Source of the DNA: Chaetoceros tenuissimus
Taxonomy: Eukaryota; Bacillariophyta; Thalassiosirophyceae; Chaetocerotales; Chaetocerotaceae
Assembly: GCA_021927905.1 (NCBI GenBank)
Contig: BLLK01000023.1
Location: 868,001 to 932,000 of the forward strand
Direction: 5' to 3'
DNA length: 64,000 nt
In this document: positions 35,706 to 46,429 of the stretch, one piece after another
Numbering within the stretch: the stretch's first letter is position 1
Layout: each line of letters starts with the position of its first letter
The notes under the pieces: model-generated
The model's input: only the letters and a program-made list of their open reading frames with translations
Told to the model about the DNA's origin: nothing
Databases searched by the model: none
Program-made: the position numbers and the translations under genes

Positions 35706-37633
35706 TTATTCAGCAATCTCTGACAAAAAAGGATAGCTTCGTCTTCTCTTAGGTGCGCCCGCACCAAGAAGAAGACTGCTTCGGCCATCTTCTCCTTCAC
35801 TCAAAGTACTATCCATTCGTTCCAACAATGCATCGCCATACATGGATCCCAAATCACTTTCACTTGCGGAACGTGTTCTAGCTCTTGCTCTTAGTCCTTC
35901 TCCTTCGTTAGATTCAAATAGTAATTCTCGTTCATTCACAGCTGTAGAAGTTAAAATGGAGTCGTAATCTCCCATAAATAACAATACAATGAATGATAGA
36001 AGGAAGTAAACGCCAAACGAACCAATGCCAATGCGAATATTCACTCCATTCTCATTCATAAGTGTGAATAAAAGAGGCGGTAGCCATACCAATACTTGCG
36101 AGGCAAAGACGTATAGTCCAGCCATTTCACCTTCAATTCCTTTGGGAATGAGACTGCATAGTAGAGTTTTATCCGATGGTTCCTTCCAGCCCATTAGCAA
36201 TCCCATAATTGCTGCAATGATGTAAAGACGAGTCTCTTGACCTTGCTTGTATACTAAAAGTGATAATGCTGGACCAAGCATTGAAAAGAGTAGCATGCAT
36301 ACTTTCAATGAAATGAGTGGATCGTACTTGTCCATGATTGTAAGTGAAAGTTTGTTTCCAGGAATGGCACTATTGGTAGAAAGGATGAGTATATATTAGA
36401 TTTTGAGATATAATAGCAAAAGGTGTACCATTACAGATACTTACAAAAACAAAACAATCAATGATGTAATCCCAATATTTGTAGAAGTAATTTGAATTTG
36501 TTCATTCAAATAAGAAATGACAGCCGCAGCAAAAGAAACAAGCGCCGAAGAGGAGATTGCACGAAAGCACAGAAACCATCTGACTTCTTTCCTCTGTTTG
36601 AATGCTTTGACAAATGTCACTTTTAGAGATCTGAGTCCGCTTGTTACAAAACTGCATTTACTATTGTTTGACGCTGAGGATGGTTTCACATGTGCTGCTT
36701 TACGCGGCCCTATCATTTTCGTCCATGTTAGACCATAGATGAGTAATTGTGGTACAAATGCTAGAAATAATGCGATCCGCGCCGATTCTAACGCACTGGT
36801 AATGTTGAGAGAAACTGTTATCCCAGTCATGATGGCCAAGTAAACTACCACAGCGATTGAATTGAATACTATGTGTAGATGTATTAGATATGATTGAAAA
36901 TACACGTCGAAAACATTTCATCAATTCATACTTTCAACTTACAATAAATCAAGGTGTTATATTTTGCCAAAAGATGTTTATCATCGGTCAACTCTGGATA
37001 ATAAGCTATACTAACACAAGTATTTGTCGTCAGTAGAACAAGAGAAAGAAGCTGCAGCAATAAAAGAACGAACCAATGCGAAATGAATGCTTCGGCAAAT
37101 GTTACTATTGTCACTCCTAGAGCAGTGAGACCTCCCACAAGTCGTCTTTTATTTGAGTAGTCCAAAAAGGCACCTAAAAGAGGCATAATCACAGCTGAAC
37201 AAATGCCGAGTATCAATACAAATAGAGAGATCAATGATGACGGCTTGATGGTGCCATACACTTTTCTATCGCAGTTTGAATAGTCCTTGTCTCCATCAAC
37301 ATCTTCACATCCGGCTGCTTCATAGGCGAGTTGCACAGTGGCAGTAGATAGATACACTGATGTTGCTACAATAGCACAAGCTTCAGGTATTTTATTCAAA
37401 GCTAATCCTTTTGCTTCATTATTCTCATGAAAAGAAAAGAAATGTGTCAGTTTTGCACAAGAGCATTTCTTCTTTGCTTGTTCTTGCTGAAGGTTCTCAT
37501 TATTTGCGTGGTCTATAGATGAATCTTGATCTTCTTCTCTGCTGAATTCTTCTATAGGTAGTGCTGCATTTAGGTTGCCAGTCTCAATATCAAATGTACC
37601 GGCAGTATTGTCATTTGCTGTATTCATTTCCAT
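35706..37633 (-). CDS. MFS-type transporter
   Basis: Join 37633-36943, 36868-36445, 36369-35706 (introns 74 and 75 nt, GT-AG, phases kept), 592 aa. About twelve hydrophobic segments are split by a basic central loop (about 36600-36700), and the order resembles Atg22-like/UMF1-like members of the major facilitator superfamily: EACAIVATSVYLSTATVQLA, SLISLFVLILGICSAVIMPLLGAFLDYSNKRR (the D-x-x-x-x-K/R-R loop after TM2), LAIMTGI, FAIPGNKLSL and GLLMGWKEPSDKTLL. N- and C-termini are polar and cytosolic; the C-terminal tail is rich in Ser, Glu and Arg, perhaps regulatory. Substrate unknown. The start MEMNTAND is chosen because upstream in-frame sequence (open to a possible acceptor at 37766) lies inside a tandem duplication; an upstream exon cannot be excluded. 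Confidence 0.75.
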
Positions 37634-38310
37634 GATTTCTTGAGTTTTTAGTGATGGTCTATTTGATGTTTGTGTCTTTCCCAGCTCGTTTCTACGAGCA
37701 GATGTTTCAAAGAGAAGTGTTCTCAAGTGATCTCCTAGTGGGCGCAGATAGGCTGAGTAGATGAAACTATTGAATATAGTTCAGTCACTAAGTAATCTCA
37801 TGCACGAATAAACTCTAGCGGTGTGGTGGCTGTGAATAATGAGAAACAAAATCTCCGGTCCAGAGATGTCTGCCTTCAAGATGTCAGTGATACACGTCAT
37901 CAGAGTGTCAATGGAAAAAGTGCGTCATTTTGTCATTTTGCTGAAGGCCAGTCTCAATATCAAATGTACCGGCAGTATTGTCATTTGCTGTATTCATTTC
38001 CATGATTTCTTGAGTTTTTAGTGATGGTCTATTTGATGTTTGTGTCTTTCCCAGCTCGTTTCTACGAGCAGATGTTTCAAAGAGAAGTGTTCTCAAGTGA
38101 TCTCCTAGTGGGCGCAGATAGGCTGAGTAGATGAAACTATTGAATATAGTTCAGTCACTAAGTAAAATCTTATGCACGAATAAACTCTAGCGGTGTGGTG
38201 GCTGTGAATAATGAGAAACAAATTCTCCGGTCGCCAGAGATGTCTGCCTTCAAGATGTCAGTGATACACGTCATCAGAGTGTCAATGGAAAAAGTGCGTC
38301 ATTTTATCAT
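37577..38310. repeat. 370-bp tandem duplication at the 5' end of the MFS gene
   Basis: 37577-37946 and 37947-38310 are two head-to-tail copies with period 370 and only a few differences (for example AAGTAATCTC against AAGTAAAATCTT, and one 2-bp insertion). Each copy contains the first part of MFS exon 1, including its putative splice acceptor and ATG, and the sequence upstream. Confidence 0.9.
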
Positions 38311-38460
38311 TTTGATTTTGGCGCGCTTTTCAGGCTTCTCATATCTTCCTCTTCCGAAAAGAATACAAGAATACGATAGTGCTTATGATGTGCTGCTGAT
38401 AAAGATACATTCAAGCAATCATAGATAGCTTCGTTCAATCTATATGTATAATATAAAGTG

Positions 38461-39472
38461 ATGACAGATAATGCAGTGATCAAAGAGGAAGAAGGACGAG
38501 AAATGCCAGCTACCTCAGCAATGAGGCAGTTGCCGATGGAGATAGTCACTTCGAAAAAGATAAAGATTGGAAATGAGATCTACAATCTTGATAGAAATAT
38601 TCGGGTTCCTGATTCAAGTGTAACTAACAAAAAAGAAATCAGCATTAAATTAGAGGAAACAGCTGCAGCAGAACCAACTACAAAGGAACCAGCCCCAAAG
38701 AAAATCAAGATAGAAGATTCTTCTACTACTGTACAAGAGAAGAAACCTCCAGATCAAATTACAAGTACAAGTGTAAAAGAAGAGAAGCCGGCAGATAGAA
38801 AAGATACACAAGAATTATTTCTCGAAATTAAATGGTTTCGATTAGAATGGGTTAAAAACAAAAATGATAAAAAGCTGGAAGAATTCAATTTCTCAATGTT
38901 TGCAGATGATATTCCGAAAAGCAAGGGTTTTAAAAACTCTCGTGTTTTTGCAAAAAAAGAATGGTAGCGAACAGGGAGAAAATCATGAATATATTTTGAG
39001 CTTCTGTTTGGTGGATTCCAAAGAAAAGGATAGAAAGACTTTGGTTGAAATAGATACTTGGTATTGGACTGTACCTATTAATCTCATGCATTTCAATATA
39101 CTAAGTCAAGACTTGGCAAACTTTTGCCGCACACTTTGGAGAGCATCCGGAAGGAAAATGGATCTATATTGTGATATGGCAATTGAATTTGGCGAATCCA
39201 AGTACTCAACTGTAACCATTGCATCTTTGGTAAAAAAGGCAACAGGGATTTCAGGTTTGCGACATGTCATGTATTTTCGAACTGCCAAACTTGACAATGG
39301 TGCTACAAAAGAGCACTCTGAAATACTCATCAAAATGATTTTCGAGACATGCCCTGCAATTGTCATTTCATATGAAGAAGACTTTTCAAAGCTTGGAATC
39401 AAAACAGATGATATAGAAGATATTGGATTTTGGAAACTTAGGGATTCCAACGTTTACGTTGGTCCTGGGTGA
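38461..39472 (+). CDS. Unknown protein family, copy 1, reading through a +1 frame change
   Basis: The first frame runs from ATG 38461 to TAG 38965-38967; the +1 frame is open from 38864 to 39472. Joining them near 38953 gives about 337 aa, with the join after SRVFAKK and continuing NGSEQGENHEY. The N-terminus has a motif KKIKIGNEIYNLDR, then a polar Lys/Glu-rich region with repeated KKIKIE phrases (nuclear-localisation-like), then a globular part: LEIKWFRLEW, SMFADD, SFCLVDSKEKDRKTLVEI, TWYWTVPINLMHF, MAIEFG, GATKEHS, ending NVYVGPG. I do not recognise the family. Its paralogue at 45533-46429 changes frame at the same spot. At the join copy 1 reads GCA AAA AAA GAA; slipping of a Lys tRNA from AAA to AAG would give the +1 shift. 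No GT-AG intron of normal size can explain it. Confidence 0.5.
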
Positions 39473-40062
39473 ATTTGAGACTGGAATAGTTACTATTAAC
39501 TTTTTCAATTCTTCTACTATTTTTTCATAAGAACAATACTCGTACGAGCAGCAGCCAAATTCAAATAATTTTATTGCATGTACATGATAGTTAAACTAAA
39601 ATCTCAACATCCGATCCTTTTTCAATAGTGGATGAATAGAGAGACGTTTTTGATTCAATTGGTCCGGAAATGGAAAAGGTTGGACCCCTAAATGCAACAC
39701 ATCGATTGAGATAACTCGATAATTGAAGCTCAATAAGGAACACCTTCATTTTTATCTTGCAAAGAAAGGCTGCCAATTATAGTAGAAGTTTATCTTTCTC
39801 TTTTGTTCACGTTTACTTTAGGTTTAGGGTAAGCTATCTAGAGTTTATGAAAGGGTACTTCAATGTCGTTCATACGTTTGTGACATCATAATCTTTTTCT
39901 TCTCCTCTTCCTTCTATCTGTGAAATTTGTTATCCCTAGTTTTAATGATGGATCCTTCGATCTGTCTTTTACATTAAATATATGTCATAAACTACTCAGT
40001 GCATACTGTGAATAAAGGAAATACAGTCAGAATAATGTTCTCATATTACAAAAAAGCAACAA
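39473..40062. other. Intergenic spacer between convergent genes
   Basis: 3' flanks of the unknown gene and of the lectin gene. No gene or repeat is seen. Confidence 0.6.
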
Positions 40063-43000
40063 TTAAGAATTGCAATACTTACACACATAGCTCATACAAG
40101 TCATTCCAGTGATGGGAGTTGTGGAATGATAAATTGCCTTTCGGTTTCCAGTACAAGGTGAATCATTCCAAAATCCAGTAGACGGATAATTCAAATCCAT
40201 GCAATTCTCATTGCCATAGGAATTATTTGGCTGACCAGAGCCCCAGTTGGTATACGTCACAGACCCACGACCATCAAGAAATACCCAATCACCTTCGGAT
40301 GCAGAATCACTTCCTCCTACCCAGAACCGATCAGAACTGATCAATCCAGACAATCTTTGGTTTTGTTCAGCACAACGGATTGACACCAAGTTTGCACCAT
40401 TAGATATCGCTGCATCTTGACTAGACTGCCATGAGAGCAGACTTGTTTGTAGACAGATGTAACCTGGGTCTGCGATTGGGTATCTGATGATAACAACTCC
40501 GCTTCCTCCTGCTCCTGATGTTGTGGAGCTATCCGAGAAACCTCCAGCTCCTCCTCCTCCTAAAAGTGAAAGTGAAGAAAAGAATGAGTAAAATTATGAA
40601 ATACACAAAAATGGTTCACAAAGTAAGATGAATACAACTTTGCTCAGGTAATCATGATCTTTACTTCGTCATTCTAGTAGAAATCTTACCTCCACCAGTA
40701 TTTGGAGCACCTGAACTACCTGTACCTCGTGGAGCATTTCCACCACTTCCACCGCCATGAGTTGCAGATCCACCTGTGTTGTTTGATCCACCTCCACCAC
40801 CACCACCTCCTGCTCGACCTAAGCAGAATGAAAAAAGTTAGATGTCGAAGTTATTGAGGGAACGAAAGAACATCTTTTAATGAATTCTTTCTCCATTTCT
40901 GAGTAAATTTGCCATACATGCTCGAGACAATACTTTGTGTCGAAGAATTAGACTCAATTTCTTACCTAGAGCGATTCCAGTAATTGTTGATGTCACACCA
41001 GCACCTACGAAAGGGAAAGAAAAGATTTTAGATTAGAAAATGTCGGTATCACTACTAAACATATGCGTCTAGTCATGGTTATGTCTACGTACCTCCAGGT
41101 CCTCCAACTCCGTTTGGAGCAGTACTATCAAAGCCACCAGCACCCCCTATGAAAGAAATGAAAGAAAATCCAATTAGCGATGATAATTCGAAAGTGACGT
41201 AAATAGGCAACAAGCTGGAATAATTGTACCGACTTACCTCCTCCATAAGTACCTAAAATTAAATAGATAGAATCAAATGATTTGAGTTTCTGATTGGGTC
41301 AAAAAGTTCAAGTCATCCATACTACTTACCACCGGAAGGCGTGCTTTGACCACCTCCACCTTGATATCCTTGACATGTTTCACCGCTACCATAATATCCA
41401 ACACAAGATCCACCACCTCCAGATCCACCTAGCTTCCCTGATGAGAAAAGAGTTAGACATGTTGATTGTATATGATGCGCACTTTGCCTTTCCAGAACTA
41501 ATGAAGCTTACCAGCAGTGTCATGACGATTGGAACCTCCACCTCCACCAATGGCAGTGTGCCCAAAAGCAGACGAATTCCCACCGTTCAAACCAGCCTGA
41601 TTACTCCCGACAACCGCCGCACCTCCAGCACCAACTACAATCGAATACGAACCACTTGTGACAGTTACTGTCTCTACTGGAGAACAGCCGCCACCAGATG
41701 ATTCACCAACAACTGATGATATATATCCACCAGCACCTCCTCCTCCTGTAAACAAATTATGAATAAGATTCTATCCAAGATTTGATGCAATCTATAAAAA
41801 AGTTTCTTACCTCCACCACAATTGTTACCGGAAGTAGCAATACCTCCACTTCCCCCGCCTGCAATGATGAGGAACTCGACATCTCTTGTGCCTGCATTCA
41901 CCATGAAAGTACCAGATGAAGTGAATGTATGAATTCCATATCCATTAGATTCAGTGTAATCACCACCACTTGCTGAGAAACCAAAATTTAACAGTGAAGG
42001 ACTAGAAACAGTCCAATCATATATTTTGAAGTCCGCTCTCCATGGTCGCCAAAAGAATCTTGAAATAGCCACATTGTAATTCGCAGTTGATGCTACCTCT
42101 TCTTCATTGATGTAGAATTTGATGGTGCCAAGTTTGCGCTCAACCTTGAAGTAAAAGAGATTATCATGATGAGTTCCTTTATTCAACTCTGCAAAACCAC
42201 TATAAAAAGTAGAATCGGAATGGGTGAAAAGATGGTTGACAATCTGATAACTGCTTCCATCAAATCCAAAATTGTCAAGGTCATTGATGAAAAAGGAAGC
42301 AGCTGATCCACTTCCATCTACTTTCAATTTTGCCAGCACGGTGAAATCATCGTTTGCACCAATTGGTAAGTTATATACATTCCAATTATCTGCATTTGTA
42401 GCAGTTGCTCTACCAGGCACGCTGAGGTAGGTACCAGCCGTATCGGATTGAGTGACTAGATTGTTGTTGCGAAGACGTGTGTCTGATGTTTGTATACCAT
42501 TTTCTACGATCTTGACTGTATCCTGACACCCTGTAGAAAACAGAACACGCACAATGGTAAACAATATGAACCAAATTCCATTACAACGAGAGAAATTAAA
42601 ATCAGTACTTACCAACATATGGTGTACACTGTAACCCATCTATAGCAAAAGTCGATTCAAATATTGAACCCCTCAACCTTCCACATCCAACATCATTCCA
42701 AAGTCCATCAGATTTAATTACCATACAATTTTCTACATCAGAACCGTCAGGGTGACCTGGAGCCCAATTTGAATAAGTCACCGCATTGCCATCTGGCAAA
42801 ACCCACACGCCTTCATTGTCAACATCTGTACCTCCAATATATACATTTAGATCTCCAGTCAAAGAATGCACAGCAATTTGCTGTGCGCTACAACGTATGG
42901 AGACTAAATTGGCGCCTGTCTGTGCTGCTGCAGCCGCTTGAACACTGTCAGCGTGTGTGCGTGTAGTAGTATCTAAACAGATGTAACCTGCTGAAACAGG

Positions 43001-45088
43001 GGATAGCTGGAAACTCTTTAGATTCATGATTCCACCATTTGAGGAAGTGCCCCTAAAAGTCAATTGATCAATGCCATAACTAGTCTGGATTGGGATTTCC
43101 GCTGTGACGAAAGTACCCCAGCTAGTACCAGTAGATGCTGGTGAATATGTACCAATAATTTCGCCAGTCTCATGATCACCCTTGCGGATCTCAAATGAAC
43201 CACTAGTAGTACCCTTAGCATATGTGATCTTAATGCTGTTGGCTCCTGATCCAAAATCAATAGGACTGTATGTGAAGTAGTCACCATTATCAAAGGCACC
43301 AATGATGTCACCAGAGGCGAATACTCCTGAACATGTGCTCACTTCAGTTGCATGGAGAGTGGTAAATGGAGTATACCTCTCGGACAGGTCAATCAATTGA
43401 TAAGAAATCAAAAGGATCGCTGCAGTTGTTTCCGAAGTAGTGAAGGTCAACGAGTTTACTCCAGATAACTGAACAGTCTTATCAAATGGAATCAACATGA
43501 TATTGCTTACATCCCACGTGTCTGTCCCAACAGGGGTAAACTGAGCAATAGTTGTCCCAGAAGCATCGCCTAATTTGACTCCTACTGAGCCAGAACTATT
43601 TACTTCACCATTTGCATAAGTTATTTTGATTCCTTTTACACTGTTGGTGGACCCAAAGTCAACATTGTCGAAAGTAATGTGACTATTTCCGTCTCCAAGA
43701 AGATATGGATCTTGAGATGGATTTGAAGAGGGACTGAGGGATGGTAATTCTGACGGACTTGACGAGGGACTATTCGACGGTACTAAAGACGGACTACTTG
43801 AACCAATCATGAAGCTTATCTGCTTTGCAATATCACCAGAAATGTCTCCAATCACATTTCTACTACCAATTGTTGAACCATCTCCAAAAGTACCTCCGTA
43901 GTTTGTTCCTACAGAGTACACGGAACCATCATCAAACAAAGCATGTCCTGTGTATTCGCCAACATGCATTGATGATAAAGATTTTCCAGTGATGCCGTCA
44001 AAAAGTGATACCAATGCAGGATATAATACATTTGCTCCTCCATTAGCAATTCCCAGTTGATAATAATTGTTATTGCCAAAACACATTGGACTTCCACTCA
44101 CAACAAGGCATGTAGATGAATATGCAGCATTAATACCCGAGATTCCGGAAAGCTCGGTTCCAGTGGAATCTTGAAGGACAAATACAGGTGAAGAAATATA
44201 AGCCGAAGTGAGTTCAGCAGAACCAATTCCAAGCTGACCTTGATTATTTGCGCCCCAGCATTTAGCCTTTGTAGTATCCAACAAAGCGCAAAAGTGAGTA
44301 GATCCTGCTGTAAGAGCGGTCACACCATGTCCCAAGTCAATGGTAGTTGAAGCATTACCACTACTAGAATAACCATATCCGACGCATATTGCTTGTGTAG
44401 TATCCAATTCTGTAATAATGCAAGTTGCTGACATTGAAAGTGCAATCAACACTGCTGATCTTGCTTGGTCAATTCCATCAGCTAAACTATTCAACCCCAG
44501 TTGCCCATCTTCACTAAAGCCCCAACAGTATACGGCTCCAGTATTTTGAATAGCACAATTGTGGTATGCACCAGCTTCAATATGTATCACATTTGTAAGA
44601 ACGGCACCGTTCTTTTTGACTTGAACAGGAGTAGCTGAATTTGTAGTCGTTTCATCTCCAAGCTGCTGAAAGCCATTGGAGCCATTGCACCAGACATGTC
44701 CATCATTGAATAAAGTACATGTATGATCATACCCAGTGATAACTTTGATTGGCTTGGCAGTAATACTACTTGGAAAGTTCAATTGTACCGGCGTACCGAA
44801 AGTATCGGAAGTAGATTGTCCGAGCTGTCCATAGTAGTTGAATCTAACACATTGAACCATATCATATGAAAGTAGACATGCATGAGCAGAGCTTGAGAAT
44901 TGAAAAGTTTGATCCTCATTCAGTTTTCGATTACTTTCATTATTATCATGAATAGGACTATCGCCACTTGTGCTATTGTTGCTATTATATGTAGTAGTAC
45001 TTCTTCTTCTTGTTGATTGGGCCAATACCGAAGACGGTTCATGAGAGCCAAAAACTAAAGCTAAGACTGCAAAATCCTTGAACCTCAT
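40063..45088 (-). CDS. Secreted multidomain lectin with RCC1 repeats and a glycine-rich block encoded by mini-exons (1423 aa, nine exons)
   Basis: Join 45088-42613, 42530-41811, 41745-41512, 41437-41330, 41252-41238, 41146-41093, 41004-40966, 40818-40690, 40559-40063; all eight introns are GT-AG and the sum is exactly 1424 codons. Signal peptide MRFKDFAVLALVFG at the N-terminus. Exon 1: several RCC1 repeats (for example NTGAVYCWGFSEDGQLGLN, KCWGANNQGQLGIG), a PSxxPS linker, two CBM6-like domains (DFGS, IKITYA, VKLGDASG) and a C-type lectin domain (WVLPDGNAVTYSNWAPGHP, ENC, LWNDVGC). Exon 2: LamG-like jelly roll, then GIHTFTSSGTFMV, the start of a glycine-rich domain like that of bacterial and phage adhesins. 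Exons 3-9 complete it, ending GGSGVVIIRYP, followed by a second C-type lectin domain (YTNWGSGQPNN, ENCMDLN, WNDSPC). Every internal boundary splits a Gly codon after its first base (phase 1). Likely an extracellular glycan-binding adhesin. Confidence 0.85.
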
Positions 45089-45532: not shown

Positions 45533-46429
45533 ATGCAAGGAGTAAAAGCAGAAGAGATACCATCTGATTCTCCAATCGAGCAGCTACCAGAGATTCTCAC
45601 TCGTAAAAAGATTAAAATCAGAGGAAATATCTATACTTTAGATCGAGACATCGAGGAGGATAATACTACATCCGTAGAGAAACAAAATAACACAGGTGAT
45701 AAAATAGAACATCAAGAGGAACCAATAGCAAAGAAAGTAAAGACAGAAGGTAAAAGAGAAGACGAATACTTTCTTGAGATTAAATGGGAAAGATATGAAG
45801 ATAGTGACGATGGTTCTTGGAAAGAGACACCATATTCTATGTTTGCAGATGATATGGAGAAATTTGAGCATTCCCGAATTTTCTCTGAAAAAGAAGGGGC
45901 CGAGATGGGAGAAGAATTTTGAATATAGTTGGCCTTTTTGCTTAGTAGATTCAAAAGCAGAAGATAGAAAGACTCTGGTTGAAATATCAACTTGGTATTG
46001 GATTGTTCCAATTAATCTCATGCACTTTCATCAATTATCCGGAGACTTGGCTAGCTTATGTCGCATGCTTTGGAAAGCAGCTGGAAGGAGGATGAGAGAC
46101 TGTTCTCAAATGGCGATTGAATTTGGTTCTTCTCCGTATTCGTCTGTCAAAGTTATCGAGGTGGTACACGAGGCAGCAGGTATCGAGGAAGATCATAGAC
46201 AACATATAATGTATTTTCAAAGTGCAAAACTCAAAAATGGTGCTACGATGGAGCACTCTTCAAAACTAATCAAAAATGCTTTTTCGCAACTTTGATGAGG
46301 TAGTCATCTCGTTCAAGACTGTGATCTTGCCGATTTAGGAATAACTATAGAAATAATCATACGATTGGATTCAATCAAGTAGGTTACGACAATGTCTATG
46401 TCGGTCCAAATGAGAACGTCGAAATGTAA
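45533..46429 (+). pseudogene. Unknown protein family, copy 2, with several frame breaks
   Basis: Paralogue of the gene at 38461-39472. Starts MQGVKAEE, shares the N-terminal motif KKIKIRGNIYTLDR, then FLEIKWERYE and SMFADD. The frame ends at a stop at about 45920, while the +1 frame is open from 45774 to 46295 and carries the globular part (FCLVDSKAEDRKTLVEI, TWYWIVPINLMHF, MAIEFG, GATMEHS). The change falls where copy 1 also changes: GAA AAA GAA GGG here. After 46295 the homology continues with at least one further shift (DCDLADLGI, then NVYVGP near 46400), so the 3' end is decayed. I rate it a pseudogene or a truncated functional copy. Confidence 0.6.

Follow-up and report, generated by a model that had tools for sequence, protein, structure and literature searches.

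A secreted-type lectin gene on the minus strand of a 64,000-nucleotide stretch of Chaetoceros tenuissimus DNA (hereafter, the window; G+C 36–42%) contains a glycine-rich domain that, by its sequence, is an ordinary, phage-fibre-type member of the Pfam family Gly_rich_2 (PF21722). We consider it highly probable that the introns in this domain were inserted at proto-splice sites in glycine codons before the gene was duplicated, and that the resulting exons are spliced constitutively. On this reading, seven introns would have been inserted at AG|G or G|G sites of a domain that was until then intact and uninterrupted, the full set would predate the duplication, and constitutive splicing of the glycine-rich exons would yield a single binding or scaffold domain in an extracellular diatom lectin.

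The gene was rebuilt from its splice sites and occupies positions 45088–40063, with nine exons and eight introns of 65–147 nt. When the introns were inspected for non-GT-AG junctions, which would speak against the model, all eight proved to be GT-AG, with donors that are invariably GTAAG or GTACG; the spliced coding sequence (4,272 nt) contains one stop, at its end. Exon 1 (42613–45088) is followed by exons 2 (41811–42530, 720 nt), 3 (41512–41745, 234 nt), 4 (41330–41437, 108 nt), 5 (41238–41252, a 15-nt microexon, GTACTTATGGAGGAG), 6 (41093–41146, 54 nt), 7 (40966–41004, 39 nt) and 8 (40690–40818, 129 nt), each of exons 2–8 with phase 1-1 ends, and by exon 9 (40063–40559), all on the minus strand. 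The sizes and phases of exons 3–8 thus agree with the original prediction, as do the junctions of the form G|Gx that it described for exons 2–9; the exon 1/2 junction likewise splits a glycine codon in phase 1, so that the pattern extends to all eight junctions, only five of which are AG|G. The two shortest of these exons, 5 and 7, can be taken as real because both recur with flanking AG and GT sites in two paralogues, and because intronless phage homologues can be aligned with exon 7 and with the regions that surround exon 5. The nine-exon model is, accordingly, confirmed. The true C-terminus of the lectin is uncertain because the last codons (40083–40063) read TGT|GTAAGT, which resembles a donor and may lead to another last exon; were such an exon used near 40005, the reading frame would likewise stop within a few codons.

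The encoded protein begins with a hydrophobic N-terminus that, by eye, resembles a signal peptide, and continues with RCC1 repeats, CBM6-like, C-type lectin, ConA-like, glycine-rich and again C-type lectin domains, in that order. Exon 1 encodes the N-terminus, the RCC1-like repeat region (43865–44836; PF25390, E = 1.4 × 10−59), two CBM6-like stretches, the better of which lies at 43001–43330 (PF03422, E = 9.8 × 10−20), and the first C-type lectin domain (42668–42922; PF00059, E = 3.2 × 10−9). Exon 2 opens with a ConA-like jelly roll of 189 residues (about 42528–41962), for which the AlphaFold model (pLDDT 86) was matched by Foldseek to VIP36, ERGIC-53, CBM66 and beta-glucanases. The glycine-rich domain (GYGIHTF...VVIIRYP, 40477–41943) starts in the remainder of exon 2 and, interrupted by seven introns, ends in exon 9, which also carries the second C-type lectin domain (about 40437–40132; PF00059, E = 6.4 × 10−14) and the stop. 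Both C-type lectin domains, at 37.9 and 53.0 bits, exceed the PF00059 cut-off of 22.6. The ConA-like domain is found at about 15 places in the genome (on C17, C38, C18, C42, C13 and C32), many of them on C17, where the multiple copies represent a local gene-family expansion.

Once the exons are joined, the glycine-rich sequence matches one complete PF21722 domain (model positions 1–225 of 226, E = 1.2 × 10−19; 71.7 bits against a curated cut-off of 24.3), and phrog_2295 is matched by the whole diatom domain (E = 2.9 × 10−44). These full-length profile matches, together with the fold of the phage member L036 described below, vindicate the resemblance to tail-fibre or adhesin domains, and the assignment to a secreted-type lectin gene, that had been proposed originally. 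A scan of IMG/VR that used a generic consensus of the domain as a lead yielded 131 confirmed stretches, from which 80 loci were kept. In all 20 environmental phage open reading frames checked, the matched stretch lies uninterrupted in a single open frame, and all 19 aligned phage members match PF21722. In a joint alignment with seven phage members, the diatom domain is collinear from end to end, with shared landmarks that include the VEFLIIAGGG start, GGGGAGG, Y-VGAGG, QGY in exon 4, ITG in exon 7 (from the strand motif (S/T)ITG, which phage members conserve) and NTGGGGGG across exons 8 and 9; four of the seven glycines that are split by introns are invariant in these seven phage rows. The diatom copy thus shares with PF21722 and phrog_2295 the start (xIHTFTSSGTF), the end (GGSGVVIIRY) and everything in between, whereas it differs in being broken by seven introns and embedded in a eukaryotic lectin architecture. 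No confirmed relatives were retrieved when IMG/VR was searched with the diatom domain alignment, and no relatives were found by tblastn among named phages, the latter result being probably caused by the BLAST low-complexity filter; phmmer likewise gave no match among PDB sequences.

The fold was examined on L036, that is, on a phage homologue and not on the spliced diatom product. The AlphaFold model of this protein (pLDDT 84, pTM 0.87) resembles solved phage structures, namely, the cyanophage Pam3 fibre (7ypx, 7yfw; Z = 16.2) and the mycobacteriophage Bxb1 tail tip (9d93; Z = 15.2), the likeness being one of the fold of a phage family member. The similarity to the glycine-rich domain of animal ALK/LTK is weaker (Z = 6.6–8.2 over approximately 120 residues), with about 20% identity and at a level that possibly reflects a common arrangement only. 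When placed on the L036 model, the seven introns map mostly outside strands, with intron 7 inside one, and none of them marks a module edge; the mini-exons are not structural modules.

The phase of the introns is readily accounted for by codon composition. In the coding sequence of the glycine-rich domain (37% Gly), 35 of the 36 AG|G sites and 97 of the 110 G|G sites are in phase 1, as are 30 of the 31 AG|G and 90 of the 103 G|G sites that are not occupied by introns. Given these sites, the probability that all seven introns are in phase 1 is 0.79 (AG|G) or 0.39 (G|G), compared with 0.0005 under equal phases. The introns are most likely in phase 1 because the proto-splice sites of the domain fall almost exclusively within glycine (GGN) codons; with so much glycine, insertion would produce phase 1 introns and symmetric exons automatically, and, since the symmetry follows from the shared phase, it is not a separate observation. 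According to the summary in PMC1626468, Tordai and Patthy put forward an equivalence of phase-1 proto-splice sites and glycine codons for introns at Gly-rich signal-peptide cleavage sites, a case in which, by the same summary, Vibranovski et al. favour exon shuffling. The explanation of the phase bias by GGN proto-splice sites is, as summarized there, the same, whereas the earlier case concerns a cleavage site in human genes and the present one a long glycine-rich domain in a diatom. Strict patterns for other Gly-Gly introns across the genome matched only this glycine-rich family.

The density of the introns is a different matter. Seven of the eight introns lie within the glycine-rich domain, which makes up 19% of the coding sequence (p = 5 × 10−5 by length, p = 0.04 given the AG|G density, and p = 0.004 given the G|G density). 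A small excess of introns thus remains beyond the density of proto-splice sites, mild on AG|G and clearer on G|G. It could be attributed to selection, whereby introns that break up repetitive GGN-rich DNA would be kept or favoured for reducing slippage or RNA-DNA hybrid instability, so that intron positions would come from proto-splice sites and intron density from selection. The clustering that persists beyond AG|G density and the 16 overlapping matches to GGNGGNGGNGG within the domain are compatible with such selection; however, the excess is marginal, and a single gene family amounts to a single event, and we regard this account as unlikely.

A search of the genome (41.0 Mb in 68 contigs, one of them of 4,456,483 bases) located the glycine-rich domain at only three places: the gene in the window, C17:598252-599802 and C34:4028807-4032130. 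Exons 3–8 are identical in number and order in the three copies. Exon 3 is 234 nt in each, exons 5, 6 and 7 are 15, 54 and 39 nt throughout, with the same exon 5 sequence in all three, exon 4 is 108, 108 and 103 nt (99 if an in-frame AG|GT acceptor is used) and exon 8 is 129, 126 and 132 nt; exon lengths are thus fixed, the exceptions being exon 8, which varies by steps of 3 nt, and the disturbed start of exon 4 on C34, and intron lengths differ between the copies. In exons 2–4, dN between paralogues (0.07–0.10) is lower than dS (0.26–0.50), the shortest exons having too few sites. On C17 the domain comes after RCC1, CBM6, lectin and ConA-like domains and some additional intervening sequence, and on C34 it immediately follows RCC1 repeats; the cassette has moved as a whole, and its single exons have not. 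Because the C17 and C34 copies end shortly past VVIIRY, the second C-type lectin domain is particular to the gene in the window. Taken together, a known fibre-type domain, collinear intronless phage reading frames and a fixed exon set make the mini-exons appear as parts of a single fixed domain. Insertion of introns into the intact domain is most likely the direction of change; the introns may be older, or the change may have taken another direction.

The C34 paralogue is interrupted at the intron 3/exon 4 boundary by an insert of approximately 2 kb (L035:3843-5846, near 4029342-4031345 of C34) whose ends carry nearly identical direct repeats (99% over 162 nt and 100% over 63 nt) and which contains a 490-aa open reading frame with no Pfam match. 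Just downstream of the insert, an AG|GT within a glycine codon offers a possible new acceptor in phase 1. An in-frame stop (L035:2704-2708) splits the RCC1 part of this paralogue, so that this copy may be decaying.

The original prediction went on to propose a built-in diversity generator, in which the symmetric mini-exons would be skipped or repeated by alternative splicing to vary the tip of the lectin. Exons 2–8 can each be skipped in frame, as had been proposed for exons 3–8; the symmetry itself is expected from glycine codons. Exon skipping occurs in diatoms, but in Phaeodactylum it is intron retention that is prominent among the forms of alternative splicing (PMC5859163), and, in the lectin gene, retention of any intron would introduce an in-frame stop (introns 2, 4, 6, 7 and 8) or a frameshift (introns 1, 3 and 5), with uniformly GTAAG or GTACG donors. 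A profile was built from the phage members, on which the whole diatom domain scores 124.7 bits, and exon deletions were compared with random deletions of equal size. Skipping exon 5 lowers the score by 3 bits only, but skipping exon 3, 4, 6, 7 or 8 costs 17–52 bits, and the losses fall within the range of random deletions; furthermore, residues conserved across the phage members are present in exons 4, 6, 7 and 8. With the exon set unchanged in three paralogues, the domain uninterrupted in phages, and phase accounted for by glycine codons, the proposed generator, whether by splicing or by shuffling of exons, is unsupported, and we consider it very improbable. Regulated skipping of phase-1 mini-exons in combinations, by which the diatom would adjust loops at the tip of an extracellular lectin, seems slightly less credible still, and occasional or rare skipping of an exon may occur. 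The gene shows no Dscam-type array of variant exons of a single kind, whether mutually exclusive or repeated, since exons 3–8 are consecutive, single-copy segments of the domain, unlike in length and sequence. Assembly of the domain from separate mini-exon modules by exon shuffling, a process that classically acts on symmetric 1-1 exons, is disfavoured and the least probable reading of all, given that phages encode the complete, collinear domain intronless and in unchanged order, that exon edges lie mostly in loops, once within a strand and never at module edges, and that the domain occurs in three gene architectures but always whole. For the preferred reading, that of introns inserted into an intact domain, constitutive splicing of exons 3–8 remains predicted from sequence, and surface binding is the putative function.

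Around the lectin gene, a direct duplication of approximately 370 bases, nearly identical, was observed at 37577–38314, beside a gene at 36926–37780, and two plus-strand genes that appear related by eye (KIKIGNEIYNLDRNI / KIKIRGNIYTLDRDI) lie one on each side of the lectin gene (38461–39472 and 45535–46428). Searches of the 64,000 nt with Rfam and for tRNAs returned no feature.

The exon pattern of this gene is instructive, yet it is an ordinary outcome of glycine codons combined with a preference in intron insertion. The gene shows, in a clear-cut case, that a run of symmetric phase-1 exons can arise from codon composition alone, and it warns against taking exon symmetry as evidence for shuffled exons or for diversity through splicing. 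In addition, it places a phage-fibre-type glycine-rich domain within a multi-lectin protein of a diatom, with possible relevance to sugar or surface binding by diatoms.
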